Assembly (NCBI RefSeq): GCF_024137965.1
Contig: NZ_CP099975.1
Location: forward strand, 496,001-560,000
Direction of reading: 5' to 3'
DNA length: 64,000 bases
Source of the DNA: Halomonas sp. Y3
Lineage (GTDB): Bacteria; Pseudomonadota; Gammaproteobacteria; Pseudomonadales; Halomonadaceae
Shown: piece after piece, positions 26,701-49,616 of the stretch
How positions within the stretch are numbered: the first letter of the stretch is position 1
How the letters are laid out: every line of letters begins with the position of its first letter
Translations under genes and position numbers: made by a program
The notes under the pieces: model-generated
The model's database searches: none
What the model saw: the letters and a program-made list of their open reading frames with translations, nothing else
Told to the model about the DNA's origin: nothing

Positions 26701-27690
26701 TTACTTCAGGTTCAGGTTATAAAGGCTGCAGCAGTTGCACTCGAAGAGGTTCCTGCGCTGTTCCTCGGTCAGCCAGTCGATCTCCTCAATGACAGGCTTG
26801 AGGTGGTCGAAGTCACGTCCGCTCACGGGATCGCGTGCACTGCCGGTGCCTGGCTTCTCGGTGCCGAACAGGACATTGTCGGTGCCGACGACCTTGAACA
26901 GGAACTCGAGGGCCTCCTTGGAGTAGTTACAGGTGTCGAAGTGAAGCTTCTTGAGCTTCTCGTCGAAGCTTTGCTCTTCCCCCTTGCGCACGTTCCAGGC
27001 TCGGAAGCGCCCCATCTGGTAAGGGATAGCACCGCCGCCATGGGGAATGACGATCTTGAGCGCCGGGAAGCGATCGAAGGTATCCGAGGTGAGCAGGGAG
27101 ATGACGGCGGTGCTTTCCTCGTTGATGAACTTCAGCGTATAGCTTTCACGCGGCTGGCAGCTGCCGGCAGAGTGGATCAGCGCCGGCACATCCAGTTCGA
27201 CCATCTTCTCGTAGAGGGGATGCCAGAAGGGGTCACCGAGGCCGGGCGGTGGCAGCTCATCACCCTCGGTGGGGTCCGGGTTGATCAGACAGCCGACGAA
27301 GCCGAGCTCCTTGACGCAGCGCTCCAGCTCCGACACAACGCGTACGGAGGGGCACTCATGTCGGTGCTGGGGAAGGCCGGCGACTCCACGGAAGCGGTCT
27401 GGAAACATCTCCACCAGGCGATAGATGACGTCGTTGACGTGCCGGTTCCAGAGTTCGGAGACGATGGCTGGTTTGAGAGAGTGCAGCTGCAGATAAGGGC
27501 GTGGGGAGATCAGCTGAATATCTGTCCCCACGGAGTCCATGATCTTGAGCAGAGCCTCACCTGAGGCTCGGATCGAGGCATCGGGAATTTTCGGATTGCC
27601 GGAAGGATTACCGCGTCCTCCAACCAGTTCGGTGAAGTACTTGTAGCTCTCCTGGGGCATGACGATATGAGCATGAGAATCGATAATCAT
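26701..27690 (-). CDS. 4-oxalomesaconate hydratase (LigJ type), amidohydrolase family
   Basis: A 329-residue metal-dependent amidohydrolase-fold protein. Metal ligands His6 and His8 lie in MIIDSHAHIV, a further His in LIHSAGS and another in IPHGGGAIPYQMGRFR. The segment CVKELGFVGCLINPDPTEGD and the IPHGGGAxPY motif match LigJ-type 4-oxalomesaconate hydratases better than aminocarboxymuconate-semialdehyde decarboxylases, the other close family. It would hydrate the ring-cleavage product of gallate to 4-carboxy-4-hydroxy-2-oxoadipate. The dioxygenase at 39 kb and the LigK-like proteins at 40-42 kb supply the steps before and after. It follows the RidA gene by 2 bases. Confidence 0.75.
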   Translation of the reverse strand: MIIDSHAHIVMPQESYKYFTELVGGRGNPSGNPKIPDASIRASGEALLKIMDSVGTDIQLISPRPYLQLHSLKPAIVSELWNRHVNDVIYRLVEMFPDRFRGVAGLPQHRHECPSVRVVSELERCVKELGFVGCLINPDPTEGDELPPPGLGDPFWHPLYEKMVELDVPALIHSAGSCQPRESYTLKFINEESTAVISLLTSDTFDRFPALKIVIPHGGGAIPYQMGRFRAWNVRKGEEQSFDEKLKKLHFDTCNYSKEALEFLFKVVGTDNVLFGTEKPGTGSARDPVSGRDFDHLKPVIEEIDWLTEEQRRNLFECNCCSLYNLNLK

Positions 27691-27692
27691 GA

Positions 27693-28085
27693 TTATTTTC
27701 CTTCTGGAATGATTGCGATCACTTCGATCTGCAGGTGCAGGGGAACGGGAAGCTCGGCCAGCTGAATATGCCGTGCCGGCCGGTCATCCGGGTCGGGAAA
27801 ATGTTTCAACCAGGCTTCGTTGATGAGGTCGCGAACGGCGTTGTCGCGGATGGAGATGGCCATCTTGCCGATATGGCCCAGGCTGGTACCGGCGGTATCG
27901 ACCAGGGACTGCAGGTGAGCGAAGACTAACTCTACCTGGCGTGCTGCGCTGTCGGCAGGTTGACCGGTTTCGGGATCGATGCCCGAGATGGCGGAAGAGA
28001 ACAGCAGGTTGCCGACTCGGGCGGCCCCGGGAATCGGAGCGCGGTGCCCGAACCCGGGAATCGAGATGCTGCGTTTTCCGGTCAT
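27693..28085 (-). CDS. RidA/YjgF-family protein
   Basis: A 130-residue trimeric-fold protein with the family marks GNLLFSSAISGIDPETGQ near residue 25 and RPARHIQLAELPVPLHLQIEV near residue 102; the arginine in RPAR is the family's substrate-binding residue. RidA proteins hydrolyse reactive enamines or imines; some homologues are 2-aminomuconate deaminases in aromatic pathways. Here it may hydrolyse or tautomerise an enol product before LigJ; this is speculative. It is first in the minus-strand pair with the hydratase. Confidence 0.8.
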   Translation of the reverse strand: MTGKRSISIPGFGHRAPIPGAARVGNLLFSSAISGIDPETGQPADSAARQVELVFAHLQSLVDTAGTSLGHIGKMAISIRDNAVRDLINEAWLKHFPDPDDRPARHIQLAELPVPLHLQIEVIAIIPEGK

Positions 28086-28472: not shown

Positions 28473-29702
28473 ATGCCTATGACACCGCAAGAAAATGATC
28501 GCCTGACTCGTGTAGAGAACGGTGCCCCCATGGGGCAGATGCTGCGCCAGTGGCACTGGCTGCCGGCGGTCCCCTCACTGTCGCTCGAGGCCGGCGGCAC
28601 TCCCATCCGCGTGCGTCTGCTGGGGGACAACTATGTCGTATTCCGCTCCGATGATGGCCGGGTGGCCTGTTTCGATGAGCAGTGCCCACACCGCAAGGCG
28701 TCACTGGCGGTAGCGCGCAACGAGGACAATGCCCTTACCTGTCTGTTCCATGGCTGGAAGTTCAGCGTGACTGGCGAGATGATCGAGGCGCCCAATCATA
28801 CCGGCGATCAGGTCAGCTTCTGTCAGAAGGTCAAGTTCAACAGCTACAGGATATGTGAAGCCGGCGGTATCGTCTGGGTATGGCTCGGGGAGGGTGAGAC
28901 TCCCCCCGCCTTCCCCGAGCTGCCCTTTACCTCCCTGCCCGAGGACCAGCGGGCCGTGGCCTGCCAGGAAATTCCCACCAACTGGGTGCAGGGTGTCGAA
29001 GCCTCCATGGATACCTCTCATGTGGGCGTGCTGCACTCCTCCTCCACCGAGCTGACCTCCGGCAAGTCGCAGCGCATGCACATGACCAGGGTGCGGGCGC
29101 CTCGCCTCGAGTTCGAGGAGATGACTTACGGGTTCCGCTATGCGGCCCTGCGCCCTCTGGGTGAAGATGAGCAGTATGTACGTGTCAACAACTTCGTGAT
29201 GCCCTGGTACGGCATTATCTGTCCCCCTGAAGAGGGTGGGCCGGGCACCGTCTTCTTCAGCGTGCCGGTGGATGATACCCATCACCGTGCCTGGTTCGTC
29301 CATTTCAATACCAGCCGTCCCCTGGGGGTGACACCCTTTACTATTGGCTCGGATCTGATGGATTTTCCGCCGCTGCCGCCCGGCGACGAGACCAACAACT
29401 GGGGCCAGGATCGTGGTGTCATGGCGCGTGGTCACTTCAGCGGCTTCCCTCAGCACTTCGGTACCGAGGACTTCGCCATCTTCCTGGGCCAGGGGCCGAT
29501 CGTGGACCGGACCACCGAGCAGCTCTGCTCCGCCGATGGTGCCGTGCTGCGGGTGCGCAACCTGCTGCTGCGTGCCGCCGAGCAGCATGAAAACGGCAAG
29601 CCGGCTCCCTCCGCCGAGGAGCTGAAGTACGCCGAGATTCGCTCCGTGGGTGGCGTCATCCCGGAGGAACAGGACTGGCGTGTCCTGGTGGATGGCGAGT
29701 GA
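28473..29702 (+). CDS. Rieske non-haem iron oxygenase, phthalate-dioxygenase/VanA-like
   Basis: A 409-residue oxygenase component. The Rieske [2Fe-2S] ligands are Cys71-x-His73 (DEQCPHRKAS) and Cys90-x2-His93 (LTCLFHGWKF); the catalytic iron ligands are His183 and His188 in DTSHVGVLHSS behind the bridging Asp180. The opening (ENDRLTRVENGAPMGQMLRQ) is that of the phthalate 4,5-dioxygenase group, which includes O-demethylases. No reductase is adjacent; the one at 48.6 kb could serve it. In this island it could demethylate a methoxylated aromatic ring or hydroxylate it. AGGAG at 28461 sets the ATG. Confidence 0.85.
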   Translation: MPMTPQENDRLTRVENGAPMGQMLRQWHWLPAVPSLSLEAGGTPIRVRLLGDNYVVFRSDDGRVACFDEQCPHRKASLAVARNEDNALTCLFHGWKFSVTGEMIEAPNHTGDQVSFCQKVKFNSYRICEAGGIVWVWLGEGETPPAFPELPFTSLPEDQRAVACQEIPTNWVQGVEASMDTSHVGVLHSSSTELTSGKSQRMHMTRVRAPRLEFEEMTYGFRYAALRPLGEDEQYVRVNNFVMPWYGIICPPEEGGPGTVFFSVPVDDTHHRAWFVHFNTSRPLGVTPFTIGSDLMDFPPLPPGDETNNWGQDRGVMARGHFSGFPQHFGTEDFAIFLGQGPIVDRTTEQLCSADGAVLRVRNLLLRAAEQHENGKPAPSAEELKYAEIRSVGGVIPEEQDWRVLVDGE

Positions 29703-29773: not shown

Positions 29774-31927
29774 ATGCTTACTACGCCACTTCTGCATGGA
29801 GAGCGACAGCTCCATGACGTCAGTCGTCTGCTCCATCCCCGCTCCATCGCGGTGGTGGGGGTGTCCGACAGCGAGCGTTCCTTCGGCAATTTCGTGCTCT
29901 CCAATCTCGAGAGCTTCGACTACACCGGCCAACTCCACCTGGTCAGCCGATCTTCCAGCGAGGTACAGGGACGGGCCTGCGTGGGCTCCATCGACGACTT
30001 GCCGGAGGGTGTCGATGTGGCGGTGTTGACGGTGCCGGCCTCGGCGGTCATCGAGTCGGTGCGTGCCTGCGGGCGGCGCGGTATCGGGGCGGCGGTGGTG
30101 TTCGCTTCCGGGTTTTCCGAGGCCGGCGAGGAGGGCGAGCGTCAGCAGGCGGAGCTCACGCGGGTCGCCGCTGAGGGCGGTGTCATGGTAGTAGGGCCCA
30201 ACTGCATGGGGCTCAGCAACCTGGTCGATGGGATACCACTGACCTTCGAGCCACAGATGCTGGGCCCTGACTACAGTGCCAGACTGCGTCAGGAGAGTCA
30301 GCCGGGGGTTGCAGTGGTGGCCCAGAGCGGCGCCATGTCCAACAACCTTCGTGATGCCCTGATTGCCAATGGCCTGCCGGTCATGCATGCCGTCTCCACC
30401 GGCAACGAGGCGGTGCTGAGTATCGAGGATCATCTGGCTTATCTGGTCGATGAGCCGCGTGTCGGGGTCATTGCTCTCTATGTGGAGCAGGTGCGCTACC
30501 CGGAACTCTTTCTGGCGCAGGTGGCCCGGGCCCGCCAGGCCGGCAAGCCTGTCGTCATGTTGATGCCCGGGCGCAGCGCTCGCGCCAGGGATGCAGTGCA
30601 GTCCCATACCGGCGCCCTGGCAGGCAACCATGCAGCGGCCTGCGTGCGGCTGCGTGCCGAAGGGGTGCTGCTGGTGGATACCCTGGATGAACTGTTCGAC
30701 GTGACCGCCATCCTGCACAGGTTTCCCGAGCCGCCGGCGGCACCGCCGGCTCTGCTGACCAATTCCGGGGCGATCAAGAACTGTGCTCTGGACCTGGGCG
30801 AGGATATCGGCTTGACTTTCCCCGCCTTTGCCGACTCCACCGTGTCGGGGCTCGGGGCCATTCTGCCCTCCTATGCCGTGGCGGAGAACCCGCTGGACTT
30901 CACCACCATCAGCGCCAGGGATCCGGAAGCCTATACCCGGCTGTGTCGGGTGGTAGTGGAGGATGCCGGCATCGGCGGCGTCATGGTGGCGATGATGGGG
31001 GGGCCCAGGGTCGGTCAACTCGACAAGGCGCGTCATCTGGTACCTGCCATCGCCCAGTGCCACAAGCCCGCGGCGCTGATCATCCTCGGTGACCAGACCG
31101 AGCTGATCCCGGAGTTTCGCCAGGCCATTAAGGAGAGCGGCGTGCCCTTCTTCCGCTCCGTAGACCGGGCGGTACGCGCCTTCACCCGGGTGGAGCAGTA
31201 TGGCCGCAGCCTGCGGCGCCAGCGCGCCGAGCCGGGCGAACGCCGGCTCCCGGTGCTGCCTGGCAGCGGGCTGCATGCCGAGTATCGCTGCAAGCAGTGG
31301 CTTGCCGACATGGGGGTCGCCTTTCCCGCGGGGCGGCTGGCCACCAGCGCCGACGAAGCCGTGGCGGTCGCCGAGCAGGTCGGCTATCCCGTGGTACTCA
31401 AGGCTCAGTCCGCCGACCTTCCTCACAAGTCCGATGCCGGTGGTGTGGTAGTCGGTCTGGCCGATGAGCAGGCGCTGCGTCAAGGCTGGGAGCGTCTGCA
31501 GTCGGCGGTAGCATCGGCTCGGCCCGAGCTGACCCTGGACGGGGTGCTGGTGGAGGCCATGGGCCGCAGCGGCGTCGAGCTGATCGTCGGTGCACGCCGC
31601 GACCCTCAGTGGGGGCCGGTGGTGATGGTCGGCCTGGGAGGCGTCTGGATCGAGGCGCTCAAGGATGTGCGTCTGCTGCCCGCCGATGTGCCTCAGGAAG
31701 CGATCGCGCAGGAGGTCCTCGCCCTCAAGGGGGCCGCCCTGCTGACCGGTCTGCGCGGCAGCGAGCCGGTGGATATTGCCGCCATCGCCGAGGTGGTCGC
31801 CCGGGTCGGGGAGGTCATGCAGAGCTGCCCTGAGGTGGAGGAGATCGACATCAATCCGCTGGTGGCCTATCCCGATGGCGTCGTGGCACTGGATGCGCTG
31901 GTCGTGACCAGCCCGCAACACTACTAG
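29774..31927 (+). CDS. ADP-forming acyl-CoA synthetase (FerA-like family)
   Basis: A 717-residue fused NDP-forming acyl-CoA ligase: CoA-binding domain (residues about 15-140, HPRSIAVVGVSDSERSFGNF), two succinyl-CoA-ligase-like domains, and a C-terminal ATP-grasp domain (VVLKAQSADLPHKSDAGGVV near 543). The phosphohistidine is His278 in QSHTGALAG. FerA, the feruloyl-CoA synthetase of Sphingobium SYK-6, belongs to this family, which suits a cluster that degrades an aryl acid with a side chain. It has a different mechanism from the AMP-forming ligase at 58 kb, so the two probably act on different substrates. Confidence 0.85.
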   Translation: MLTTPLLHGERQLHDVSRLLHPRSIAVVGVSDSERSFGNFVLSNLESFDYTGQLHLVSRSSSEVQGRACVGSIDDLPEGVDVAVLTVPASAVIESVRACGRRGIGAAVVFASGFSEAGEEGERQQAELTRVAAEGGVMVVGPNCMGLSNLVDGIPLTFEPQMLGPDYSARLRQESQPGVAVVAQSGAMSNNLRDALIANGLPVMHAVSTGNEAVLSIEDHLAYLVDEPRVGVIALYVEQVRYPELFLAQVARARQAGKPVVMLMPGRSARARDAVQSHTGALAGNHAAACVRLRAEGVLLVDTLDELFDVTAILHRFPEPPAAPPALLTNSGAIKNCALDLGEDIGLTFPAFADSTVSGLGAILPSYAVAENPLDFTTISARDPEAYTRLCRVVVEDAGIGGVMVAMMGGPRVGQLDKARHLVPAIAQCHKPAALIILGDQTELIPEFRQAIKESGVPFFRSVDRAVRAFTRVEQYGRSLRRQRAEPGERRLPVLPGSGLHAEYRCKQWLADMGVAFPAGRLATSADEAVAVAEQVGYPVVLKAQSADLPHKSDAGGVVVGLADEQALRQGWERLQSAVASARPELTLDGVLVEAMGRSGVELIVGARRDPQWGPVVMVGLGGVWIEALKDVRLLPADVPQEAIAQEVLALKGAALLTGLRGSEPVDIAAIAEVVARVGEVMQSCPEVEEIDINPLVAYPDGVVALDALVVTSPQHY

Positions 31928-31940
31928 GCGAGAACGAATC

Positions 31941-33122
31941 ATGAGACTGGAATTTACACCTGAAGAAGAGGCCTTCCGCCAGGAGGTCCGGGCATTCGTC
32001 GAGGCGGAACTGGATCCCGCGATCAGGGCCAAGGTCGAGCGCGGCCTGCGCCTCGAGAAGGTCGATTATGTGGCCTGGTACACCAGGCTCCATGAGAAGG
32101 GCTGGATCACCCCGGGCTGGCCGGAGGAGCATGGCGGCCCCGGCTGGACCCCGATCCAGAAGTATCTCTTCGACGAGGAGACCCTGCTGGGAGGCGCACC
32201 TCGGATCATCGCCAGCGGTATCAACATGCTGGGGCCAGTGCTGATCGCCTTCGGCACTCCCGAGCAGAAGGAGAAGTACCTGCCGGCCATCCGTCGCAGC
32301 GAGAGCTGGTGGGCCCAGGGCTTTTCCGAGCCCGGCTCCGGCTCCGATCTGGCCTCCATGCGCACCACCGCCGTGCGCGATGGGGACCACTACATCGTCA
32401 ATGGCCACAAGATCTGGACCTCCTACGCCCACTTCTGCGACAAGCTGTTCTGCCTGGTCAAGACCGACAGGGAGGCCAAGCCTCAGGAGGGGATCTCCTT
32501 CCTGCTGATAGATCTGGACACTCCCGGCATCGAAGTGCGCCCGATCAAGCTCTACGAGGGGGGTAACGACCTCAACGAGGTGTTCCTGGACAACGTTCGG
32601 GTGCCGGTGGAGAACCTGATCGGCGAGGAGAACAAGGGCTGGACCTACGCCAAGTATCTGCTGGGGCACGAGCGCACCGGTATCGCCGGTATCGGGGCTT
32701 CCAAGCAGCAATTACTGCGGGTCAAGCGGCTGCTGGCCGAGCAGGGCATGGAGGGGGAGCCTCACTTCCGGCGCCGGGTCGCCGAGCTGGAGATCGAGCT
32801 GCTGGCCCTGGAGGCCACCGGGCTGCGTATCCTCGGCGAGAATCAGGTCTTCAGTGCACCGGGGGCCGAGGCCTCGATGCTCAAGGTGCGCGGTACCGAG
32901 CTGCGCCAGGATATCTTCGAGCTTCTCTACGAAGTCGCCGGCCCGGCCGCCATTCCCTTCTCCGAGGAGGCCATGCGGCTGGAGGGCGAAGATCCGCTGA
33001 TCGGCGATGATGAGCGTGCTTCGCTGGCAGCCAACTTCCTGGATTCCCGGAAGCTATCCATCTACGGCGGCACCAACGAGGTGCAGCGCAACGTCACGGC
33101 CCAAATGTTGCTGCGAGGTTAG
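31941..33122 (+). CDS. Acyl-CoA dehydrogenase, large subunit type
   Basis: A 393-residue acyl-CoA dehydrogenase with FSEPGSGSDLASMRTTAVRD near residue 130 (flavin and substrate loop) and IYGGTNEVQRNVTAQMLLRG at the end. At the usual catalytic Glu of medium-chain enzymes (YEGT) it has Gly (YGGT); a Glu in LLGHERTGIAG may act instead, as in the isovaleryl-CoA branch. A second, divergent dehydrogenase follows after 9 bases, the arrangement of alpha2beta2 enzymes such as PimCD and actinobacterial steroid ChsE pairs. It would desaturate an aryl-acyl-CoA. Confidence 0.85.
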   Translation: MRLEFTPEEEAFRQEVRAFVEAELDPAIRAKVERGLRLEKVDYVAWYTRLHEKGWITPGWPEEHGGPGWTPIQKYLFDEETLLGGAPRIIASGINMLGPVLIAFGTPEQKEKYLPAIRRSESWWAQGFSEPGSGSDLASMRTTAVRDGDHYIVNGHKIWTSYAHFCDKLFCLVKTDREAKPQEGISFLLIDLDTPGIEVRPIKLYEGGNDLNEVFLDNVRVPVENLIGEENKGWTYAKYLLGHERTGIAGIGASKQQLLRVKRLLAEQGMEGEPHFRRRVAELEIELLALEATGLRILGENQVFSAPGAEASMLKVRGTELRQDIFELLYEVAGPAAIPFSEEAMRLEGEDPLIGDDERASLAANFLDSRKLSIYGGTNEVQRNVTAQMLLRG

Positions 33123-33131: not shown

Positions 33132-34253
33132 ATGGATTTCTCGATTAGCGAAGAGCAGTTGCAGCTGCGGGATGCGGTCAAGCGGTTCTGCGACGGTGAG
33201 TATCCCCAGGAGCGCCGAGGACAGCCGGTGAGTATCGACCGCCGGCGTGAGCGCTGGGGCATGATGGCCGAGCTGGGCCTGACCGGGCTGATCCTCAGCG
33301 AGGCCTGTGGCGGTAGTGATCTGGGCATGGTGGAGCAGATGGGGGTTCTCGAGGAGCTGGGGCGCTGTTTGAGCCCCGAACCCTATCTCTCCACGGCCGT
33401 TATATCAGCAAGCCTTATACAGTCAATGGGAAATGCCGAGCAGCGGGAGCGGTGGCTGGCGCCAATCGCTGCCGGCGAGCTGCGCATGGCCCTGGCCCTG
33501 GATGAGCCCCGGGGACGCTATGCCTACGCGACGATGGCATGTCGGCTGACCCCCGAGGGGGATGGCTATCGCCTGGATGGGGAGAAGTGCCTGGTACTGG
33601 ATGGACCCTATGCCGATGCCTATGTGGTGGCGGCCCGGCATGAGGGAAGCCTGCAGCTGCTGGTGGTGCCTGCGGATGCGGCGGGGTTGACCCGGACCGC
33701 CGGCACCACCCTGGATGCTCGCGAAATCGCCACGCTCGGCTTCGCCGGGGTGTTGGTGTCCCCCTCGCAGCATCTGGCCGAGGGGGAGAGGGCCGAGCAG
33801 GCTCTCCAGGCAGTACTGAACCGCGCTTCGGCGGCGCTGTGTGCCGAGTCGGTGGGTGCCATGACCGAGCTGGTGGAGCAGACCCGCGAGTTCCTCAAGG
33901 TGCGCAAGCAATTCGGTGCCCCTCTGGGCAAGTTTCAGGCGCTGCAGCATCGTCTCGTCGACATGGTGATCGCCCTGGAACAGTCCCGTTCCATGGCTGC
34001 TCTGGCGGCTATGGCCGTCGATGAGGCGGGTGACAGGAAGTGCCTAAAACTGGTCTCCGCTGCCCGAGTCAGCGTGGCCCGAGCCGCACGGCTGATCGCC
34101 AAGGAGGCGGTGCAGATGCACGGTGCCATGGGCATGACCGACGAGTGTCAGGTGGGGCACTACGTCAAGCGCCTGATGGTCACCGAGCGTCTGTTCGGCG
34201 ACGTCTCTTATCACCTGGAAAGTTTCGAGAACACTACCGCGACGGCGGCGTAA
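33132..34253 (+). CDS. Acyl-CoA dehydrogenase, small subunit type
   Basis: A 373-residue partner of the preceding gene. It keeps the fold marks RKQFGAPLGKFQALQHRLVD near residue 258 and AVQMHGAMGMTDECQVGHYV near residue 322, but the middle loop is reduced (ALDEPRGRYAYATMA instead of a canonical TEPxAGSD). This degeneration is usual for the partner subunit of heterotetrameric enzymes. Close spacing (9 bases) to the large subunit supports co-assembly. It may bind FAD jointly with its partner. Confidence 0.83.
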   Translation: MDFSISEEQLQLRDAVKRFCDGEYPQERRGQPVSIDRRRERWGMMAELGLTGLILSEACGGSDLGMVEQMGVLEELGRCLSPEPYLSTAVISASLIQSMGNAEQRERWLAPIAAGELRMALALDEPRGRYAYATMACRLTPEGDGYRLDGEKCLVLDGPYADAYVVAARHEGSLQLLVVPADAAGLTRTAGTTLDAREIATLGFAGVLVSPSQHLAEGERAEQALQAVLNRASAALCAESVGAMTELVEQTREFLKVRKQFGAPLGKFQALQHRLVDMVIALEQSRSMAALAAMAVDEAGDRKCLKLVSAARVSVARAARLIAKEAVQMHGAMGMTDECQVGHYVKRLMVTERLFGDVSYHLESFENTTATAA

Positions 34254-41372: not shown

Positions 41373-41993
41373 ATGACCATCAGTGACGACCTGCTGCAGC
41401 GTGCCGCCGAGCTGCCTACGGCAACCCTGCACGAGGCCTATGGCAAGCGCGGCAATCTGCCGTCTGCCATCAAGCCGGTATCACCGGGCTTCCGGGTCTG
41501 CGGCCGGGCGGTAACGGTGCATGGTCCGGGAGGTGATAACGTGTGGATCCACCGTGCCATCTACGAGGCCCAGCCGGGCGATGTACTGGTGGTGTGCACC
41601 AACAGTACCTACGAGCATGGCTACTGGGGAGAGATCATGTCCACGGCGGCCCTGGAGCGCGGACTCGCCGGCGTGGTAATCGACGGTGGGGCTCGCGATG
41701 GCGGTCTGCTGGCCGAGTTCGGGTTTCCCGTCTTCTCTCGGGGGCTCTGTATCAAGGGGACGGGCAAGGACCTGAATGCCGTCGCCTGGATCAACAAGCC
41801 GGTGATGATCGGAGATGTCGTGGTAACCTCTGGTGACCTGATCGTGGGGGATCAAGATGGGGTCGTGGCCATTCCCCGGACCGTGGTGCCTACCGTTGTC
41901 GAGGCGGCCGAGCGTCGAGAAGCCGAAGAGGGGCAGATCCTCGAGCGTCTCAGGGCTGGAGAAACCACACTCGCCATCTATGGTTGGCGTTGA
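41373..41993 (+). CDS. RraA/LigK-family protein 3, probable CHA aldolase
   Basis: A 206-residue protein, the most canonical of the three: YWGEIMSTAALERGLAG carries the Glu of the aldolase loop and DGGARDGGLLAEFGFPVFSR the Arg108-Asp109 pair. This is the pattern of LigK/ProA-type aldolases that split 4-carboxy-4-hydroxy-2-oxoadipate to pyruvate and oxaloacetate with a divalent metal. It would complete the LigJ branch. GAGGAG at 41360-41365 precedes the ATG. Confidence 0.8.
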   Translation: MTISDDLLQRAAELPTATLHEAYGKRGNLPSAIKPVSPGFRVCGRAVTVHGPGGDNVWIHRAIYEAQPGDVLVVCTNSTYEHGYWGEIMSTAALERGLAGVVIDGGARDGGLLAEFGFPVFSRGLCIKGTGKDLNAVAWINKPVMIGDVVVTSGDLIVGDQDGVVAIPRTVVPTVVEAAERREAEEGQILERLRAGETTLAIYGWR

Positions 41994-42009: not shown

Positions 42010-42765
42010 ATGACGGCAAGCGCACCGCTCCTGGAAATGGATGGACACCTGGCTACGCTGACACTCAATCGCCCAGAGCAGGGCAATCGCCTGAGCGATG
42101 ATGATCTCGATGTGCTGATTCGGCACTGTGCGACGCTGGACGACTCGGCGGCACGAGTGGTGCATATTCGAGCGCTGGGACGTCACTTCTGTGCCGGTTA
42201 TAACTTCGCCGATCTCGCCTCAGGAGGGAGAGGAGAGCGATTCGAGGCCGCTATGGATGCGCTGGCGCGGCTCCGTCCTGTTACGCTTGCTGAGGTGCAG
42301 GGCGGTGTCTTCGGCGGAGCCAGTGATCTGCTTCTGGCCTGTGATTTCAGGGTTGGCAGTCAGGCGGCTCGTGTCAGCATGCCGGCGGCACGGATTGGCC
42401 TGCATCTCTATGGTGGTATCCTGCGTCGTTATGTGACGCGGCTGGGGCTGAATGCAGCCAAGCGAATGATACTAAATGCTGAGCCGCTTGATGCCGAGCA
42501 GATGTTTCAGATTGGTCTGCTGACCCATGCGCCCTGTGCAGAGGTCGAGCTGGAAGCCAGAAGTCGTGAGATCATCGACAACCTCCTGACGCTCGCTCCT
42601 CTGGCTCTGGAAGGCATGAAACGCCACCTGAATAGCATCGCGGAGGGTGGCCTGGATAGGGCACAGCTGCAGCGGGACATCGATGATTGTGTAGTATCCC
42701 GTGACTTTCAGGAAGGCCTGCATGCAATCAACGAAAAGCGCCGGGCGGTCTTCGAGGGCTGTTAA
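42010..42765 (+). CDS. Enoyl-CoA hydratase/isomerase family protein
   Basis: A 251-residue crotonase-fold protein. The oxyanion-hole segments are FCAGYNFADLA near residue 60 and GGVFGGASDLLLACDFRVGS near residue 97. Catalytic acids are not typical: where mitochondrial hydratase has two Glu, only Gly/Ala and hydrophobic residues are obvious, so it could be an isomerase, a feruloyl-CoA hydratase-lyase (FerB/Ech type) or a ring hydrolase. It ends the plus-strand run that starts at 28.5 kb. Confidence 0.75.
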   Translation: MTASAPLLEMDGHLATLTLNRPEQGNRLSDDDLDVLIRHCATLDDSAARVVHIRALGRHFCAGYNFADLASGGRGERFEAAMDALARLRPVTLAEVQGGVFGGASDLLLACDFRVGSQAARVSMPAARIGLHLYGGILRRYVTRLGLNAAKRMILNAEPLDAEQMFQIGLLTHAPCAEVELEARSREIIDNLLTLAPLALEGMKRHLNSIAEGGLDRAQLQRDIDDCVVSRDFQEGLHAINEKRRAVFEGC

Positions 42766-42920: not shown

Positions 42921-44078
42921 ATGAAGACCCCTTCGACCATCAAGACCCTAGCCCTGGCCATCGGTCTGGGCCTCCCGCTGACCGCTCTCGCAGAGCCCAC
43001 CTTCCCGCGGGTATCTGTCTGGACCGCTTATGATACCGGTTCGACCTACTACATCCAGGCATCGGCCCTGGGTGGTCTGCTGCGGGAACACCAGAACAGC
43101 AATATCCGCATCATTCCTGGCCGCAACGACGTGGCGCGCATGACACCGCTGAAAAGTGGCCAAGCAAGCTACACCATCAGTGGTATTGCTACCTATTTTG
43201 CCCAGGAAGGGGTGATGCTCTTCAACTCCAACGAGTGGGGTCCGCAGCCTCTGCGGGTGGTATCGGCCAACTTTGGTGGGCAAGCCATCGGCCTGGCGGC
43301 ATCCGGCGCTTCCGGCATCGAGACGCCGGCTGACCTGGAGGGCAAACGCGTCGCCTATGTGTTGGGCGGGGATGCCATGAATATGACCACAGCCGCGGTG
43401 CTCTCCTATGCGGGCCTCACCTGGGATGATGTGCGGAAGGTGGAGATCGGAAGCCCTCTGGAGGCGATCGACTCTGTGCTCAATGGCGTCGCCGATGCCA
43501 TGCCGGGCTCAACGGGAAACCCCCTGATCGAGCGCTTGAGCGGCAGCCCCGGTGGCCTTTCCTGGGTGCAGCTTCCGTCGGATACCCCCGAAGGGGAAGC
43601 CGCCTGGCAGCGTATCGCCGAGACAGTGCCCTACTATCAGCCGATTACCGCCACTGAAGGCGTAAATATCAGTGAGGATGATCCCTGGCATAGCGGTGGC
43701 TATGCACTGCCCATTCTGGCCACGATGGAGAGTCAAGAGGAGGATGAGGTCTACGCACTGGTCAAGTTCATGGACGAACACTTTGAGACTTTTAACCGTC
43801 AGGCTCCTGCGGCATCGGGGTGGTCGATGGAGCGACAGAATTTCGAGTGGATCATGCCCTATCACGATGGAGCCATTCGCTACTTCAAGGAGAAGGGTGC
43901 CTGGAGCGATGACCACCAGGCGCACAATGATGACTTGGTGCGACGCCAGGAGGTTCTGGCCAATGCCTGGGGCACCTATATGCAAAATGGCGGTGGGGTG
44001 AACTTTAGTTCAGAGGAGTGGAGTGATTTTCGGGCTGAAGCGCTAGAGAGTGCCGGTTTCATTCCGGGCCTGCTGTAA
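42921..44078 (+). CDS. TAXI-type TRAP substrate-binding protein
   Basis: A 385-residue periplasmic protein with a signal peptide (TIKTLALAIGLGLPLTALA). The TAXI family start appears as YDTGSTYYIQASALGGLL, and GRNDVARMTPLKSGQASYTI follows. TAXI proteins bind anions and pair with a fused 4TM-12TM permease, which is the next gene. Ligand unknown, presumably the aromatic substrate of this island. Confidence 0.87.
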   Translation: MKTPSTIKTLALAIGLGLPLTALAEPTFPRVSVWTAYDTGSTYYIQASALGGLLREHQNSNIRIIPGRNDVARMTPLKSGQASYTISGIATYFAQEGVMLFNSNEWGPQPLRVVSANFGGQAIGLAASGASGIETPADLEGKRVAYVLGGDAMNMTTAAVLSYAGLTWDDVRKVEIGSPLEAIDSVLNGVADAMPGSTGNPLIERLSGSPGGLSWVQLPSDTPEGEAAWQRIAETVPYYQPITATEGVNISEDDPWHSGGYALPILATMESQEEDEVYALVKFMDEHFETFNRQAPAASGWSMERQNFEWIMPYHDGAIRYFKEKGAWSDDHQAHNDDLVRRQEVLANAWGTYMQNGGGVNFSSEEWSDFRAEALESAGFIPGLL

Positions 44079-44095
44079 GCCCTGATGTATCTGCT

Positions 44096-44123
44096 GAGCA
44101 GATCCATTACGGTGGGTCTGCTC
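44096..44123 (+). other. Intercistronic hairpin in the TAXI-TRAP operon
   Basis: GAGCAGATCC (44096-44105) pairs with GGGTCTGCTC (44114-44123) over 10 bp with one T-G pair, 17 bases after the binding-protein stop. It parallels the stems at 21193 and 62446. Confidence 0.55.
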
Positions 44124-44157
44124 GCCCCCCTGCTCCTCATATGATCGAGTGCAAGAA

Positions 44158-46104
44158 ATGTCCGAAACCATACCTCATCGTCCAATTATTCTGAGATACA
44201 TGCTGATAGCGGTGGCGATATTTTCGACACTGACGGCCATCTATCAGGTGTTCAATATTGGTTTCTATACTGGCTACTCCATGTTCGACGTTCAGTACAT
44301 CTATGTGCTGATGTCCATGCTCTTGCCGGTTGTGTTTCTGGCCATTCCTGCCAGTGTCGGAACCCGTGTCGCCAGGGTTCCATGGTATGACTGGATACTG
44401 GCAACTACTTCTTTGGCATGCTGTGGGTTCTTTGCTGCCAATGCAGTCAATGCAATCCATCGTGGGTGGGAGTTCGCTGCACCTGAGCACGTTATCTACA
44501 TGAGCTATCTGATGTGGATCTTGGTGTTGGAGGCGGTACGCCGCTGCGGTGGCTGGGCAATTTTCACCGTTGTTCTGCTGATGTCATGCTTTCCGCTCTT
44601 TGCAGACTGGCTGCCGGATAGCTTGGCAGGCATGTCAACACCAATCGAGCAGGTGGCGATCTATCATGCCCTCAGTGCGGAGAGCATTCTGGGGATTCCG
44701 GTACAGGCCTACGGAAAGCTTGTGATAGGCTTTTTGCTCTTTGGCACTGCACTTCAGTTCACCGGTGGAGGAAAGTTCTTCCTGGATCTTGCCTTTGCAT
44801 TACTGGGAAAAGTGCGAGGTGGTCCCGCTAAGGTGTCTATTTTCTCCAGTGGCCTCATGGGCTCAATGTCCGGCAGCGTCATCACCAATGTGCTGACAAC
44901 AGGTCCTCTGTCCATTCCCGCCATGCGCCGCGTTGGGTTTTCCAAAACCTACGCGGCAGGTGTTGAGACCTGCGCCTCAACCGGGGGGGTTCTCATGCCA
45001 CCTGTCATGGGAGCCGCTGCATTTATCATGGCAGTGTTTCTTGATGTTCCCTATGGACAGATAGCCCTGGCTGCCGCTATTCCATCGGCACTCTACTTCT
45101 ACGGTCTTTTTATACAAATTGATTTCTTTGCCGCTCGCAAGGGACTCAAGGGACTGGAAGAGAAGGAGCTTCCCAAGCTCGGAGAGACCTTCAAGGCGGG
45201 TTGGCACTACTTGTTTGTCTTTGCCTTGCTGATCTGGATGCTGCTGGTCATGAATCGTGAAGCGGTTGCTCCCTTCTATGCTACGGCGCTTCTTATTGTC
45301 ATTAATCAGGTGCGTAAAACAACCCGATGGGACCTCAAAGATCTCCTGGGTTTTATTGAGATAAGCGGGCTGAGGTTGGTGGAATTGCTAGGCTTGATGG
45401 CCGGCATAGGGATGATCATGGGTGGCCTGGCAGTGACGGGGATGTCTGGTACCATCGCGACTGACCTCCTCTTTATCGCAGGTGGCAACCCGATGGTGCT
45501 CTTGCTGATGGGGGCGCTGACAAGCTTTATCCTGGGAATCGGTATGCCGATCACAGCCGCCTACATCTTCCTCGCGATTGCATTGGCTCCAGCACTCGTG
45601 GATGCGGGTCTTAATCCGGTTGCTGTGCATATGTTCATTCTTTACTGGGGTATGCTGAGTTTTATTACTCCTCCTGTCGCAACTGGCGCCTTTACTGCCG
45701 CCAAGGTTGCAGGCAGCCACCCCATGAAGACCGGCTTCATGTCCATGCAGCTGGGTAGCATCATCTACTTTATCCCCTTTTTCTTCGTGATGGAGCCTGC
45801 TCTCCTGCTGCAGGGAACTCCCGGCGAAATCATCAAGGCGGTCATCTCTGCGCTGATCGGAATCGCACTGGTGGCGGGTGGATTGCAGGGGTATCTGCCG
45901 AAGCTTGGATCTCTGGCGAATGCAGGCTTCTTGCAGTGGCCAGTAAGAGTCCTGTTCATTGTGGGTGGCCTGCTTGTGGCTATGCCACATAATCCGCTCA
46001 TCAATGTTCCTGAGGCCGGCATGCTCGCATTGGCTATTGGCTGCCTGACGTTGGCAACGCTGCTCAGCTTCCTGCTGCGCAGAAAGTGTCTGGCTGCCGG
46101 TTAG
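44158..46104 (+). CDS. TRAP permease, fused 4TM/12TM (TAXI-associated)
   Basis: A 648-residue inner-membrane protein with about 18 hydrophobic segments. The DctM-like stretches SGLMGSMSGSVITNVLTTGP near residue 239 and TGGVLMPPVMGAAAFIMAVF near residue 278 mark the large permease part; the N-terminal 130 residues replace a separate small subunit. ATG 44158 is taken; a GTG at 44149 is possible. This and the next gene are visibly richer in A/T than the pca and pch regions, a sign of a different origin. Confidence 0.9.
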   Translation: MSETIPHRPIILRYMLIAVAIFSTLTAIYQVFNIGFYTGYSMFDVQYIYVLMSMLLPVVFLAIPASVGTRVARVPWYDWILATTSLACCGFFAANAVNAIHRGWEFAAPEHVIYMSYLMWILVLEAVRRCGGWAIFTVVLLMSCFPLFADWLPDSLAGMSTPIEQVAIYHALSAESILGIPVQAYGKLVIGFLLFGTALQFTGGGKFFLDLAFALLGKVRGGPAKVSIFSSGLMGSMSGSVITNVLTTGPLSIPAMRRVGFSKTYAAGVETCASTGGVLMPPVMGAAAFIMAVFLDVPYGQIALAAAIPSALYFYGLFIQIDFFAARKGLKGLEEKELPKLGETFKAGWHYLFVFALLIWMLLVMNREAVAPFYATALLIVINQVRKTTRWDLKDLLGFIEISGLRLVELLGLMAGIGMIMGGLAVTGMSGTIATDLLFIAGGNPMVLLLMGALTSFILGIGMPITAAYIFLAIALAPALVDAGLNPVAVHMFILYWGMLSFITPPVATGAFTAAKVAGSHPMKTGFMSMQLGSIIYFIPFFFVMEPALLLQGTPGEIIKAVISALIGIALVAGGLQGYLPKLGSLANAGFLQWPVRVLFIVGGLLVAMPHNPLINVPEAGMLALAIGCLTLATLLSFLLRRKCLAAG

Positions 46105-46131: not shown

Positions 46132-47328
46132 ATGATGCACGCAGGAAGGTTGGCATTGTTGGTGGCTGCAAATACGGCGCTGGCGCCTCTCGCCATTGAT
46201 GCCTACCTTCCTGCCTTGCCGCAGATCGCCAATGAGCTTGGGACCAGCATTCATCGCGCCGAGATCTCCATCAGTATCTTCCTGGCAGGTTTTGCCGTAG
46301 GGCAGCTGGTCTGTGGGCCATTGTCCGATCGTCTAGGGCGTAAGCCAGTGCTCCTGACAGGGTTGCTGGTATTCGTGACTGCAAGTGTCATGCTTGCCTT
46401 TGCATCATCGCTGAGTGAACTTCTTGTATGGCGCTTTATTCAAGCGCTTGGGGGAGGGGCCAGCGTGGTCAACTCTTCCGCCATTGTGCGCGACTGTTTC
46501 AAGGGAAGAGAGGCGGCAACGGTGATGTCCACCATGGCAATGATCATGATGGTAGCGCCGCTGGCGGCGCCGGCAGTCGGTAGCCTTCTTCTGCTCACTT
46601 CCGGATGGCAGGCAATCTTTGTCTTCCTGGCTGTCTATGCTTGTATAGTGCTGCTGGTGGTGGCGACAAGGCTTCCGGAAACCTCGTCGGGAAGGTGCAA
46701 GGAGATCACGCCAGTCGGTGTGATCAGGGATTATGCCTCGGTTCTTGCACATCGAGAATCCCTGGGATATATCTGCGCCGTTTCCATGTCGTTCTCCGGA
46801 CTTCTCGCCTTTGTCACGGCCTCTCCTTTCGTTTATATGGATCTTCTTGGTATTTCGGCTTCGTCCTATCCCTTTGTCTTTGGCGCAAACGTGGTTTTTG
46901 TCGCGACTTGCAGCAGGATCAATGTGCGCTTGCTCAGGCACCGAAGTCCAAGGCAGAACCTCCTGCTGGGTATCGGTATTCAGCTGGTCTCTTCTTTAGG
47001 CCTTGTCATGGTTTCCCTTTCCGGCGTCGTGACCATTTACAGTGTGGTGCCATTGGTCATGATCTTCGTGGGTGCCATCGGTCTGGTGACGCCCAATGCT
47101 ATCGCGTCAGTACTTGAGAATTTTCCCCATATCAGCGCGACTGCTGCGGCCCTGATGGGAGGAGTCAAGTTTATCTGTGCAGGATTCGTCGGATTCCTGG
47201 TGGCCTTCTTCGAGGTGGACAGCATCTGGCCTATGGTTCTGATGATGCTAGGTGTTTCCATCGTTGGAAATCTGAGCCTGCGATGGTTGACATCACCAGA
47301 AGGACAAAAACAACAACTGGAGAGTTAG
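46132..47328 (+). CDS. MFS transporter, Bcr/CflA drug-resistance type
   Basis: A 398-residue 12-segment permease. Typical marks are LAPLAIDAYLPALPQIANEL near residue 19, the loop motif GPLSDRLGRKPVLL near residue 63 and VRDCFKGREAATVMSTMAM near residue 118. It belongs to the Bcr/CflA family of exporters. In an aromatic operon it may expel toxic intermediates or excess substrate. It is 3 bases ahead of the Rieske gene, so co-transcription is certain enough. Confidence 0.85.
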   Translation: MMHAGRLALLVAANTALAPLAIDAYLPALPQIANELGTSIHRAEISISIFLAGFAVGQLVCGPLSDRLGRKPVLLTGLLVFVTASVMLAFASSLSELLVWRFIQALGGGASVVNSSAIVRDCFKGREAATVMSTMAMIMMVAPLAAPAVGSLLLLTSGWQAIFVFLAVYACIVLLVVATRLPETSSGRCKEITPVGVIRDYASVLAHRESLGYICAVSMSFSGLLAFVTASPFVYMDLLGISASSYPFVFGANVVFVATCSRINVRLLRHRSPRQNLLLGIGIQLVSSLGLVMVSLSGVVTIYSVVPLVMIFVGAIGLVTPNAIASVLENFPHISATAAALMGGVKFICAGFVGFLVAFFEVDSIWPMVLMMLGVSIVGNLSLRWLTSPEGQKQQLES

Positions 47329-47331
47329 TCG

Positions 47332-48612
47332 ATGTTGTCGAATGAGCTGAATGAGTGCCTGACGCGTGTCGGGCCTGATACACCCATGGGTAAGGTGCTC
47401 CGTCGCCACTGGCACCCCATAGCAGGTGTCGACGAGCTGGAGCGTTCACCGACCAAGCCTATCAGGCTGCTGGGTGAGGATCTCGTTCTGTACAGGGACA
47501 AGAGTGGTGACTATGGCCTGCTGGATCGCCACTGTGCCCATCGGCGTGCTGATCTCAGCCAGGGGATCGTGGAACAGCACGGGATTCGATGCTTCTATCA
47601 TGGTTGGCAGTATGATGCTACAGGGCAGTGCACCCAGCAGCCTTTCGAAGAGCAGGTGGATCCGGCAGGCTCCCTCTGCGCTCGCACGCGTCTCAAGGCC
47701 TACTCTGTCAAGCCTGCCGGCGGCATGCTCTGGGCCTATCTTGGGCCTTTCCCTGCTCCTGAGCTTCCTGACTGGGAGGCGTTTCACTGGGCCAATGGTT
47801 TCGTTCAGGTCGTCTTTTCCGAGGTTCCCTGCAACTGGCTTCAAGCGCAGGAAAACTCCATCGACCCCGTTCACTTCGAGTGGACGCATGCTAACTGGAG
47901 CCGTCGGCAGCGTGATGATGGTGCCGAATATGTACCGACTCATACGAAGCTGAATTTTGAGGAGTTCGAGCACGGTTTTCTCTATAAGCGCGTCTGTGAA
48001 GATACCTCCGAGGAAGATCCGCTCTGGACAATTGGCCGTGTCTGCCTGTGGCCGCATGGTTTCTTCCTTGGCGATCACTTCGAGTGGCGAGTTCCCATAG
48101 ACGACGAGAACATGCTCAGCGTCACCTGGTCCTTCATACGCGTGCCCAGAGAGAGTGAGCCATATGACCAGCAGCATATTCCAAGCTGGTATTCGCCAAT
48201 TCAGGATAGTCAGGGAAATTGGATCACAACGCATGTGATCAACCAGGATATTGTGGCCTGGGTCGGACAGGGACGTATCACCGATAGAACCAGGGAAACT
48301 CTGGGAGCGAGTGATCGAGGCATTGCGCTACTTCGACGTCGCTTGCTCGATGATATTGATGCCGTAGAGGCGGGACGAGATCCGAAGGGCGTGTTGAGAG
48401 ATCCACCCCCAGAGGGTGGTCTGTATCTTCCCAGCGATCATCGTGAATTCTTTCTCCTCGGCCTGCCTCGGGAAGCATATCTTCGACATCCCAAGTGGGG
48501 CCGTCTGCTTACCCAGTTCATCTTCCATGCCGGGCAGCCTGAAGCGGTCAGGGCTGCCTGCGAGGTGGCTACCGGCGTGCCGATGAAGCGCGATGGTCTT
48601 ATCGACCTGTAG
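47332..48612 (+). CDS. Rieske non-haem iron oxygenase 2
   Basis: A 426-residue oxygenase. Rieske ligands Cys68-x-His70 (DRHCAHRRAD) and Cys87-x2-His90 (IRCFYHGWQY); catalytic iron His181 and His186 (DPVHFEWTHANW) behind Asp178. It shares the phthalate-dioxygenase-like N-terminus with the enzyme at 28.5 kb but is clearly different in the substrate domain. Its reductase is encoded 29 bases downstream, so this is a two-component system, possibly an aromatic O-demethylase. Confidence 0.86.
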   Translation: MLSNELNECLTRVGPDTPMGKVLRRHWHPIAGVDELERSPTKPIRLLGEDLVLYRDKSGDYGLLDRHCAHRRADLSQGIVEQHGIRCFYHGWQYDATGQCTQQPFEEQVDPAGSLCARTRLKAYSVKPAGGMLWAYLGPFPAPELPDWEAFHWANGFVQVVFSEVPCNWLQAQENSIDPVHFEWTHANWSRRQRDDGAEYVPTHTKLNFEEFEHGFLYKRVCEDTSEEDPLWTIGRVCLWPHGFFLGDHFEWRVPIDDENMLSVTWSFIRVPRESEPYDQQHIPSWYSPIQDSQGNWITTHVINQDIVAWVGQGRITDRTRETLGASDRGIALLRRRLLDDIDAVEAGRDPKGVLRDPPPEGGLYLPSDHREFFLLGLPREAYLRHPKWGRLLTQFIFHAGQPEAVRAACEVATGVPMKRDGLIDL

Positions 48613-48641
48613 TCACTATCCATCCCAGCGAGGTTACCCCC

Positions 48642-49616
48642 ATGAGTCAGGTAGAAGAAATCCTCCAAGTCAGAGTCCAGTCGATCACCTTCGAGGCTGA
48701 AGGCATTCTCAGCTATGAGTTAAGGCCCGTGGCGCCGCGCCGTGAGCTGCCCGCTTTTTCTCCTGGTGCTCATGTCGACCTGCACTTGAGTAACGGCCTG
48801 ATTCGGAGCTATTCGCTCTTCAACTCTCAGGAGCAGGGTGGCTGCTATCGCGTTGCAGTCAACCTCGATGCCAACAGCCGAGGAGGTTCGCGCTTCATGC
48901 ACAGTAGTGTCGGTGCGGGGGACATTCTCACCATCGGCCTGCCCAGAAACAACTTTCCCCTCTATGAAGAGGCCGAACATACCGTTCTGATTGCCGGTGG
49001 CATTGGTATCACGCCTCTCTTCGCCATGCTGAAGCGTCTTGAGGCACTAGGCAGGAGGTGGACGCTCTACTACTCCACGCGATCTCGAAAGAATACCGCC
49101 TTTATCAAGGAGCTCGAGGCAGTCAATGCGCAAAGCAGTCACGGCAGGGTGGTCTTCCACTTCGATCAGGAAAGTGCCGGGGGCTTCCTGAATTTCTCCG
49201 ATATCGTGGCCTCCCAGGCAGCCTCGACGCACTTCTACTGCTGCGGACCGCTGCCCATGCTGGAGGCCTTCGAGGCGGCAACCGCCGATCTTCCCGATGA
49301 CTGTGTACATGTCGAGTATTTCGCCGCCAAGGAGTCGGCGGACACCTCGGGGGGGTTTACTGTGGAGTTGGCCAGGTCCGGGAAGAGCTTCTACGTGCCG
49401 GCCGGGAAAACCATCCTCGATGTGCTGATCGAGGGGGGGCAGCAGCCTCTCTACTCCTGCCAGGAGGGGATCTGTGGCACCTGCGAGGTGGCGGTGCTTG
49501 AGGGGGAGCCGGATCATCGCGATCTCGTGCTCTCTGCAAAGCAGCAGAGGGAGGGACACAGCATGATGATCTGCTGCTCCGGCTGCAGGGGGGAGCGGCT
49601 GGTGCTTGACCTCTGA
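48642..49616 (+). CDS. Rieske oxygenase reductase, phthalate-dioxygenase-reductase/VanB type
   Basis: A 324-residue class IA reductase: FMN domain (RSYSLFNS near residue 54), NAD domain (VLIAGGIGITPLFAMLKRLE near residue 113 and YCCGPLPMLEAFE), and C-terminal plant-type [2Fe-2S] with Cys273, Cys278, Cys281 and a Cys at 311 or 312 (YSCQEGICGTCEVAV). It passes electrons from NADH to the Rieske protein upstream and perhaps also to the one at 28.5 kb, which has no reductase of its own. Confidence 0.92.
   Translation: MSQVEEILQVRVQSITFEAEGILSYELRPVAPRRELPAFSPGAHVDLHLSNGLIRSYSLFNSQEQGGCYRVAVNLDANSRGGSRFMHSSVGAGDILTIGLPRNNFPLYEEAEHTVLIAGGIGITPLFAMLKRLEALGRRWTLYYSTRSRKNTAFIKELEAVNAQSSHGRVVFHFDQESAGGFLNFSDIVASQAASTHFYCCGPLPMLEAFEAATADLPDDCVHVEYFAAKESADTSGGFTVELARSGKSFYVPAGKTILDVLIEGGQQPLYSCQEGICGTCEVAVLEGEPDHRDLVLSAKQQREGHSMMICCSGCRGERLVLDL

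Follow-up and report, generated by a model that had tools for sequence, protein, structure and literature searches.

A gene island in Halomonas sp. Y3 combines acyl-CoA side-chain genes with LigZ- and LigY-like ring-cleavage genes and is a candidate pathway for ring-5-substituted phenylpropanoids

We analyzed a 64,000-nucleotide stretch of the Halomonas sp. Y3 genome (4.11 Mb, two contigs), which spans positions 496,001 to 560,000 of contig NZ_CP099975.1 (G000:C1:496001-560000, hereafter the window) and contains a gene island that combines acyl-CoA metabolism with extradiol cleavage of an aromatic ring. All gene classes that an earlier note on this DNA had named within positions 26701-49616 were confirmed as open frames in the places it had given them, with domain support (Table 1). 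They include, as gene classes, a set for the CoA-dependent beta-oxidation of arylpropanoids (ligase, dehydrogenase, hydratase, 3-hydroxyacyl dehydrogenase, and thiolase) in one unit. The island reaches past these ends, with a second gene set at 52.7-59.8 kb that encodes EtfA/EtfB, an acyl-CoA dehydrogenase (ACAD), a short-chain dehydrogenase/reductase (SDR), an enoyl-CoA hydratase (ECH), and an Fcs-like ligase. This set adjoins the island in an H. cerina-like genome (G092) too, where the counterparts of ACAD3, SDR2, ECH2, and the Fcs-like ligase are 74-91% identical.

Table 1. Features of the island and its surroundings, in window coordinates (CHA, 4-carboxy-4-hydroxy-2-oxoadipate; ETF-QO, electron transfer flavoprotein:quinone oxidoreductase; HMG, 4-hydroxy-4-methyl-2-oxoglutarate; MFS, major facilitator superfamily; TRAP, tripartite ATP-independent periplasmic transporter).
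Feature	Coordinates	Strand	Basis
Salicylate 1-monooxygenase	16921..18315	+	TIGR03219, 598.7 bits, above cut-off 446
MarR-type regulator	26031..26504	-	HpaR/MarR-type models, scores below cut-offs; adjoins AmidoH in the two other Halomonadaceae as well
AmidoH, candidate LigY-like metal-dependent C-C hydrolase (PF04909)	26701..27690	-	Solved relatives, trees
RidA family protein	27693..28085	-	Domain search
Rieske1, LigXa_C/phthalate-dioxygenase-type oxygenase	28473..29702	+	PF19301, 132.7 bits
ADP-forming acyl-CoA synthetase, FerA-like type	29774..31927	+	Domain search; named by type, no FerA sequence compared
ACAD1, PimC-like acyl-CoA dehydrogenase	31941..33122	+	TIGR03204, 407 bits, below cut-off 623.85
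ACAD2, PimD-like acyl-CoA dehydrogenase	33132..34253	+	TIGR03203, 275 bits, below cut-off 652.7
SDR, candidate 3-hydroxyacyl-CoA dehydrogenase	34296..35243	+	Domain search
MaoC/MFE-2-type hydratase	35303..36163	+	PF22622 and PF01575
SCP2-type thiolase	36160..37323	+	NF006010, 718.6 bits, above cut-off 462
DUF35 protein, ChsH2-type (Zn ribbon and OB fold)	37325..37726	+	Domain search
Family III CoA-transferase	37762..38967	+	PF02515, 394 bits
LigZ-like class III extradiol dioxygenase (LigB family)	39011..40018	+	Sole PF02900 match of the genome; tree
RraA1, candidate hydratase of the C5 fragment	40030..40704	+	Motif; SYK-6 counterpart
RraA2, candidate HMG aldolase	40704..41360	+	Motif; SYK-6 counterpart
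RraA3, LigK-like RraA protein, absent from some modules	41373..41993	+	NF006731, TIGR02798
ECH family protein	42010..42765	+	PF00378
TAXI-type TRAP substrate-binding protein and fused permease	42921..46104	+	TIGR02122, 178 bits; permease by sequence
Bcr/CflA-type MFS transporter	46132..47328	+	Model search
Rieske2, LigXa-clade oxygenase, predicted O-demethylase	47332..48612	+	Identity to LigXa; tree
FAD/NAD and 2Fe-2S reductase, presumed Rieske partner	48642..49616	+	General reductase models only, all below cut-off
Porin, presumed uptake	49674..50867	+	By sequence; retained in both other Halomonadaceae
ETF-QO, EtfA, EtfB, presumed electron sink for acyl-CoA dehydrogenases	50942..54403	-	By sequence
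Second side-chain set: ACAD3, SDR2, ECH2, Fcs-like acyl-CoA ligase	54464..59804	-	Model search

The distribution of the island was determined with its dioxygenase and with its amidohydrolase (AmidoH) as queries. Among 250 genomes of the same family, Halomonadaceae, the dioxygenase was found at E <= 1e-20 in 4, that of Y3 included; 3 of these carry the island (G000, which is Y3 itself, G092, which has the same genus code, and G236), with Rieske2 missing from G092, while the fourth (G043) holds only a 37% relative. Across the phylum, 27 of 398 genomes encode an AmidoH at E <= 1e-60, and, the query genome aside, only one (G582) reaches 72% identity, all other places having at most 42%. In the Burkholderiales-like family of G582, AmidoH was present at E <= 1e-90 in 12 of 299 genomes (64-74% identity), and the flanks were taken for all 12, a sample selected by its close AmidoH. 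Both arms are present in 8 of them (G582, G826, G839, G876, G874, G797, G892, and G873), with the synthetase, ACAD1, ACAD2, SCP2 thiolase, DUF35 protein, CoA-transferase, LigB-family dioxygenase, RraA1-3, and ECH oriented one way and RidA, AmidoH, Rieske1, the reductase, and ECH2 the other way, at 38-84% identity per protein. A ring module without the side-chain arm occurs in 3 (G705, G730, and G742), and the remaining cluster (G768) is cut off at a contig edge. Since the same two-arm set recurs in such distant genomes, it is more than a chance assembly. Side-chain beta-oxidation and ring-cleavage genes form one conserved unit, as had been proposed, and no described pathway for this combination was found in searches of an open-access library.

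Single components recur more widely. RidA is encoded in 20 of 39 mapped loci, including all 12 with a full or partial side-chain arm, and AmidoH, RidA, and RraA1/RraA2 were also found on plasmids of unrelated bacteria, namely Rhodococcus koreensis (L027), Bradyrhizobium (L026 and L056, where they lie beside two cytochrome P450 genes), and pNL1 (L055). Matches to the SCP2 thiolase are common (136 records at E <= 1e-60); the plasmid records carrying it gave no substrate clue, and the C. metallidurans record is without annotation.

A related gene order exists in strain SYK-6. Genome G1059 was taken as SYK-6 or a near copy of it, as one of its proteins matches the LigY sequence of PDB entry 5vn5 at 100% identity, and family membership together with position beside LigY served to identify LigZ and LigXa; the locus tags reported for ligZ, ligY, and ligXa are SLG_07720, 07750, and 07770 (PMC12997858). 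The locus runs from an acyl-CoA synthetase (44% identity to that of Y3) through an ECH (45%), an SCP2 thiolase (35%), a DUF35 protein (34%), a hydrolase (BD-FAE-type, 106 bits; Abhydrolase_3, 83 bits), and an MFS transporter to LigZ (36%), RraA1 (54%), RraA2 (76%), LigY (43%), and LigXa (56%), so that ring-cleavage and acyl-CoA genes are neighbors in SYK-6 too. No discussion of these acyl-CoA genes was found in the available parts of PMC12997858, PMC12673573, PMC6874591 (on the uptake of 5,5'-dehydrodivanillate, DDVA), and PMC11323797 (on beta-5 dimer catabolism). SYK-6 further contains a second module (L112; G1059:C1:2089500-2109000) with a LigY-like protein (61%), a LigZ-type dioxygenase, RraA1-3, and a Rieske1-like gene, and an open frame with a NACHT domain lies between its ligY and ligXa (L111:10267-13290, minus strand).

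The dioxygenase is 35.5% identical to SYK-6 LigZ over its length, and its matches to gallate dioxygenase and to LigB score 35 bits. In a quick tree, for which duplicates and the long second copies L053, L012, and L013 had been removed and in which one mis-picked long SYK-6 row (L127) was ignored, 6 rows are set off as a clade (Shimodaira-Hasegawa-like approximate likelihood ratio support 97, branch length 3.04). This clade comprises SYK-6 LigB, three more SYK-6 enzymes, and two others; of its SYK-6 rows, only LigB was identified, by its place beside LigJ, DesB and DesZ being unlabelled. The Y3 enzyme falls outside this LigB/DesB-type clade and forms a subclade of its own on the LigZ side. At position 100 (window 39308-39310), which we take to be the second iron-ligand histidine of LigB, all 6 protocatechuate/gallate-type rows have H, compared to 8 of 47 LigZ-side rows, the other 39 having Q, among them LigZ and the Y3 enzyme. 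At position 253, F is found in 47/47 LigZ-side rows and Q in 6/6 protocatechuate/gallate-type rows. These results disagree with gallate or 3-O-methylgallate as the ring substrate, which the earlier note had favored.

AmidoH, labelled LigJ-type in that note, has LigY as its best solved relative (5vn5, 286 bits), with LigJ next (222 bits), and shares 43.5% identity with LigY of SYK-6. In a careful tree of 54 rows, a LigJ clade of 20 rows (support 100/99) excludes AmidoH, which groups with LigY at 95/87. A first tree, in which 13 locus prefixes were dropped as duplicates, had thereby lost the sole whole AmidoH frames of G826, G839, G876, G892, G705, and G730, and it was after seeing this first tree that the groups for two further comparisons were named. 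In the first of these, an approximately unbiased (AU) test, the grouping of AmidoH with LigJ was not rejected (p 0.31); in the second, AmidoH agreed with LigY in 12 of 30 columns discriminating LigY from LigJ, with LigJ in 7, and with neither in 11. Because of these column counts and the trees, we place AmidoH in a branch of its own, nearer to LigY.

PF04909 was additionally searched in 5 of the 8 two-arm genomes (G582, G826, G876, G892, and G839). Among the matches listed, a separate LigJ (64-67% identity to SYK-6 LigJ) lies elsewhere in G582, G876, G892, and G839, each of which also has AmidoH, and G876 has a separate LigY (67%) beside its AmidoH ortholog (72%). Since both enzymes coexist with it, AmidoH is probably neither LigJ nor LigY in function, and the separate LigY of G876 suggests that it probably has another substrate. 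No RraA match was found in the 19.5 kb read around that LigY, and the big cluster of G876 has all three RraA genes; a lower pathway shared between the two loci would fit. Membership of AmidoH in the LigJ clade was rejected based on solved relatives, trees, the coexisting LigJ, and the RraA control described below, although the AU test leaves the deep grouping open. A LigI-type PF04909 protein was not found, as the earlier note had stated, the only two PF04909 matches in the genome being AmidoH and a dihydroorotase. Three further loci (L118, L119, and L120) combine a LigY-type AmidoH with RraA1 and RraA2, with no dioxygenase of the Y3 family in the fetched stretch.

All three RraA-family proteins had been described as LigK-like, which holds closely only for RraA3: it scores above the cut-off of a CHA-aldolase model (NF006731, 186 bits versus 179) and below that of TIGR02798 (169 bits versus 304.5). 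The metal motif of HMG/CHA aldolases is D-x20-RD or G-x20-RD-x2-E/D, as reportedly described by Mazurkewich in 2014. RraA2 carries D-x20-RD in 33/33 relatives and RraA1 G-x20-RDxxE in 35/35, while the motif of RraA3 is mixed among its relatives and reads E-x20-RD in Y3; two RraA-fold aldolase motifs are also mentioned in PMC5065237. Of 32 loci with RraA2, 31 also have RraA1, while the remaining one (G705) ends at a contig edge; the SYK-6 counterparts of both lie between ligZ and ligY. As a control, loci of approximately 4 kb around 24 LigJ-type and 29 LigY-type genes were compared. Neither RraA1 nor RraA2 was found in any of the LigJ-type loci, 15 of which have RraA3-type genes, whereas 12 and 7 of the LigY-type loci contain RraA1 and RraA2, respectively. 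We infer that RraA2 is an HMG aldolase and RraA1 a candidate hydratase, possibly the one for 4-carboxy-2-hydroxypenta-2,4-dienoate (CHPD), a step listed as not identified for SYK-6 in Table 2 of PMC12673573. RidA is a weaker hydratase candidate, because it has no match in the SYK-6 lig locus.

The control also bears on the original scheme, in which the shortening of a sinapate-type acid would yield syringate, whose demethylation would provide 3-O-methylgallate or gallate for cleavage; AmidoH would be the oxalomesaconate hydratase, and the RraA proteins would supply the CHA aldolase and the oxaloacetate decarboxylase. Every gene class that this requires is present, RraA3 passes a CHA-aldolase cut-off, the AU result would accommodate it, and weak growth on syringate is reported for a marine Halomonas isolate in the part of PMC7540876 consulted. 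Yet the dioxygenase lies outside the protocatechuate/gallate-type clade and lacks its H/Q residues, LigJ occurs separately in four genomes with AmidoH, and RraA1 and RraA2 are missing from all LigJ-type loci, which makes this scheme improbable. The gallate/3-O-methylgallate and protocatechuate 4,5-cleavage systems (DesB/DesZ/LigAB, LigJ, and LigK) share with the island the class III dioxygenase superfamily, PF04909, and RraA-type proteins, but the island's dioxygenase and amidohydrolase belong to other clades.

Rieske2 is 56.1% identical to SYK-6 LigXa (426 aa, 525 bits) and falls within the LigXa clade, whereas Rieske1 (27.7% identity to LigXa) forms its own clade with proteins of the side-chain clusters. 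The best solved relatives of Rieske1 are PDB entries 7fjl (239 bits) and 7fhr (205 bits); the latter, a putative phthalate 4,5-dioxygenase, is also the best solved relative of Rieske2. A placement of the Rieske proteins among phthalate enzymes, which would have spoken against the earlier scheme, is partly touched by 7fhr as a solved relative of both, but the tree assigns Rieske2 to the LigXa clade. Six Rieske matches were obtained in the genome; apart from Rieske1 and Rieske2, they comprise two BenA-like ones just under the cut-off, one of a ring-hydroxylating type, and one weak match. Of 10 genomes searched for VanA_C, G000, G236, and G839 lack it and 7, including G092, have it. With G768 included, 6 of the 9 Burkholderiales clusters that have side-chain genes encode Rieske2, as do all 3 ring-only modules.

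The island resembles the DDVA (LigXZY) system of SYK-6 in its LigXa-clade Rieske2, its LigZ-side dioxygenase, an AmidoH that the tree, though not the AU test, groups with LigY rather than LigJ, the RraA1-RraA2 pair, and the synthetase, ECH, SCP2 thiolase, and DUF35 genes adjoining the ring genes. It differs in that its dioxygenase and hydrolase form separate subclades, in having one reductase gene where SYK-6 is reported to have LigXc and LigXd (PMC12997858), and in the addition of RidA, RraA3, the ACAD pair, the CoA-transferase, and Rieske1.

While gene content, linkage, conservation, and family placement can be read from the DNA itself, the enzymatic activities are deduced from them. On this basis, we consider it fairly likely that the island serves the catabolism of an aromatic acid whose ring carries a side chain of three carbons and, at position 5, a substituent R linked through carbon, and the best reading is that the arylpropanoid would be shortened to a ring-5-substituted vanillate-type acid before the ring steps. 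The synthetase would ligate CoA, followed by dehydrogenation (ACAD1/ACAD2), hydration (MaoC or ECH), oxidation (SDR), and thiolysis by the SCP2 thiolase with the DUF35 protein, releasing acetyl-CoA; the family III transferase would then take CoA off and hand it to the next substrate. Rieske2 and/or Rieske1, with the shared reductase, may carry out an O-demethylation or hydroxylation to 5-R-protocatechuate, which the LigZ-like dioxygenase would cleave adjacent to R and AmidoH would hydrolyze at a C-C bond to R-COOH and CHPD. This C5 piece would be hydrated, with RraA1 as the candidate, and aldol-cleaved, with RraA2 as the candidate, to two pyruvates. RraA2 shows the highest conservation of all nine proteins with a match in the SYK-6 locus (76% versus 34-56%), which would be expected of an enzyme acting on the product that is independent of R.

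Several results weigh against this reading of the island. Besides the AU test, the column counts, and the separate LigY of G876 given above, the LigXa_C model (PF19301) scores 132.7 bits with Rieske1 and 47.3 with Rieske2, contrary to the tree, and Rieske2 is missing from the clusters of G826, G839, G797, and the H. cerina-like genome. In the Burkholderiales clusters, MaoC has no match and SDR only one weak match; ECH2-like genes (44-47%) lie within these clusters, and in G582 a 3-hydroxyacyl-CoA dehydrogenase and another SDR follow right past ECH2. Finally, neither a LigW-family (PF04909) decarboxylase nor VanA was found in the Y3 genome, a decarboxylase of another family being possible, so the classical DDVA route cannot be completed here by those enzymes. 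The missing steps might instead be taken over by such a decarboxylase, by the salicylate monooxygenase, or by Rieske1. For these absences, and because of the separate LigY of G876, plain DDVA is disfavored as the substrate in this strain.

The same evidence bears on the identity of R. The most probable single option is a biaryl of the 5-5' type (diferulate or DDVA-like), with odds nevertheless well short of even. In its strict form, a special case of the proposed pathway, 5,5'-diferulate or its dihydro form would be converted to DDVA and degraded by LigX/Z/Y-like steps. The side-chain genes and the BD-FAE-type hydrolase ahead of ligZ in SYK-6 agree with this, as do the placement of Rieske2 in the LigXa clade and a Polymorphobacter genome that unites LigY (70%), a LigZ-like enzyme, RraA1-3, an ADP-forming synthetase, and a hydroxycinnamoyl-CoA hydratase/lyase. 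The absence of LigW and VanA, the second LigY of G876, and the clusters devoid of Rieske2 argue in the other direction, and we regard the strict form as a minority possibility that deserves consideration.

Alternatively, the acyl-CoA arm could act downstream and degrade the R-COOH released by AmidoH, with a 5-substituted benzoate as the starting compound and a multi-carbon chain (alkyl, prenyl, or dicarboxylate) as R. The ACAD pair does resemble pimeloyl-CoA dehydrogenase subunits, at scores below the cut-offs, and the existence of ring-only modules shows that the arm is separable; however, the SYK-6 locus has the synthetase, thiolase, and DUF35 genes even though its R-COOH, 5-carboxyvanillate, offers no oxidizable chain, and we consider this order of events unlikely. 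If R were simply hydrogen, protocatechuate-type cleavage and hydrolysis to formate and CHPD would amount to a branch of the 4,5-pathway that proceeds by hydrolysis and receives its substrate from ferulate-type acids. The ring genes would thereby be put to use and LigW would presumably not be needed, but this is improbable, as a protocatechuate 3,4-cleavage set in the window would make a second protocatechuate route redundant. That set, at window positions 994-6909, includes pcaF, PcaQ, PcaH, and a 3-oxoadipate:acetyl-CoA acetyltransferase, together with a fused PcaDC-like gene just under the cut-off; protocatechuate, if formed, would go to these genes.

Other known systems resemble the proposed pathway of side-chain shortening and hydrolytic ring cleavage in parts. 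In benzylsuccinate beta-oxidation, a CoA-transferase and a dehydrogenase act beside the BbsAB thiolase/DUF35 pair. The island shares these classes (SCP2 thiolase with DUF35, family III CoA-transferase, ACAD, and SDR), but it scores far under the Bbs cut-offs (BbsB, 143 versus 750; BbsA, 26.7 versus 250) and has oxygenolytic ring cleavage. For the mhqPOD DDVA pathway of Paenibacillus sp. B2, CHPD hydration followed by an RraA-family HMG aldolase is likewise proposed (PMC12673573); in that account, UxuA is the proposed hydratase, and Table 2 calls the demethylase and dioxygenase unrelated to LigX/LigZ. Lumichrome (riboflavin) catabolism was considered for its extradiol enzyme, hydrolase, hydratase, and aldolase and was set aside by its description, as given in the available part of PMC12746152, with the hydratase LumY annotated as a cupin and LumE having 46 kDa. 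4-Hydroxypyridine catabolism was rejected since its amidohydrolase is of a different family, according to the part of PMC7356986 consulted.

Outside the island, the salicylate 1-monooxygenase sits upstream of a DctPQM transporter, a CoA-transferase, and a thiolase, and weak relatives of it (25-31%) are located close to LigY-type genes of sphingomonads and of G876. It is possible that it handles an ortho-hydroxylated R-COOH, a link to the island that we infer.

More broadly, the island would extend LigXZY-type logic to halophiles and Burkholderiales, with a side-chain arm added. A farther-reaching idea, which we put forward tentatively and hold to be less likely than not by a wide measure, is that hydrolytic meta-cleavage has a third lineage here, separate from LigJ and standing next to LigY, whose substrates are 5-C-substituted phenylpropanoids (perhaps diferulates of cell walls) and which Halomonas-type bacteria and Burkholderiales share (ring-only in others), and that RraA1 is the CHPD hydratase both here and in SYK-6, which would add a new catalytic function to those of the RraA fold. 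According to the accessible part of a marine lignin study, the biphenyl pathway was deemed incomplete in two consortia, of which one consisted of Halomonas to 91.6%, and neither had an annotated ligZ (PMC10269927). Annotation of this kind could miss a LigZ that has diverged as far as that of Y3, and RraA1 offers a concrete candidate for the SYK-6 hydration step.

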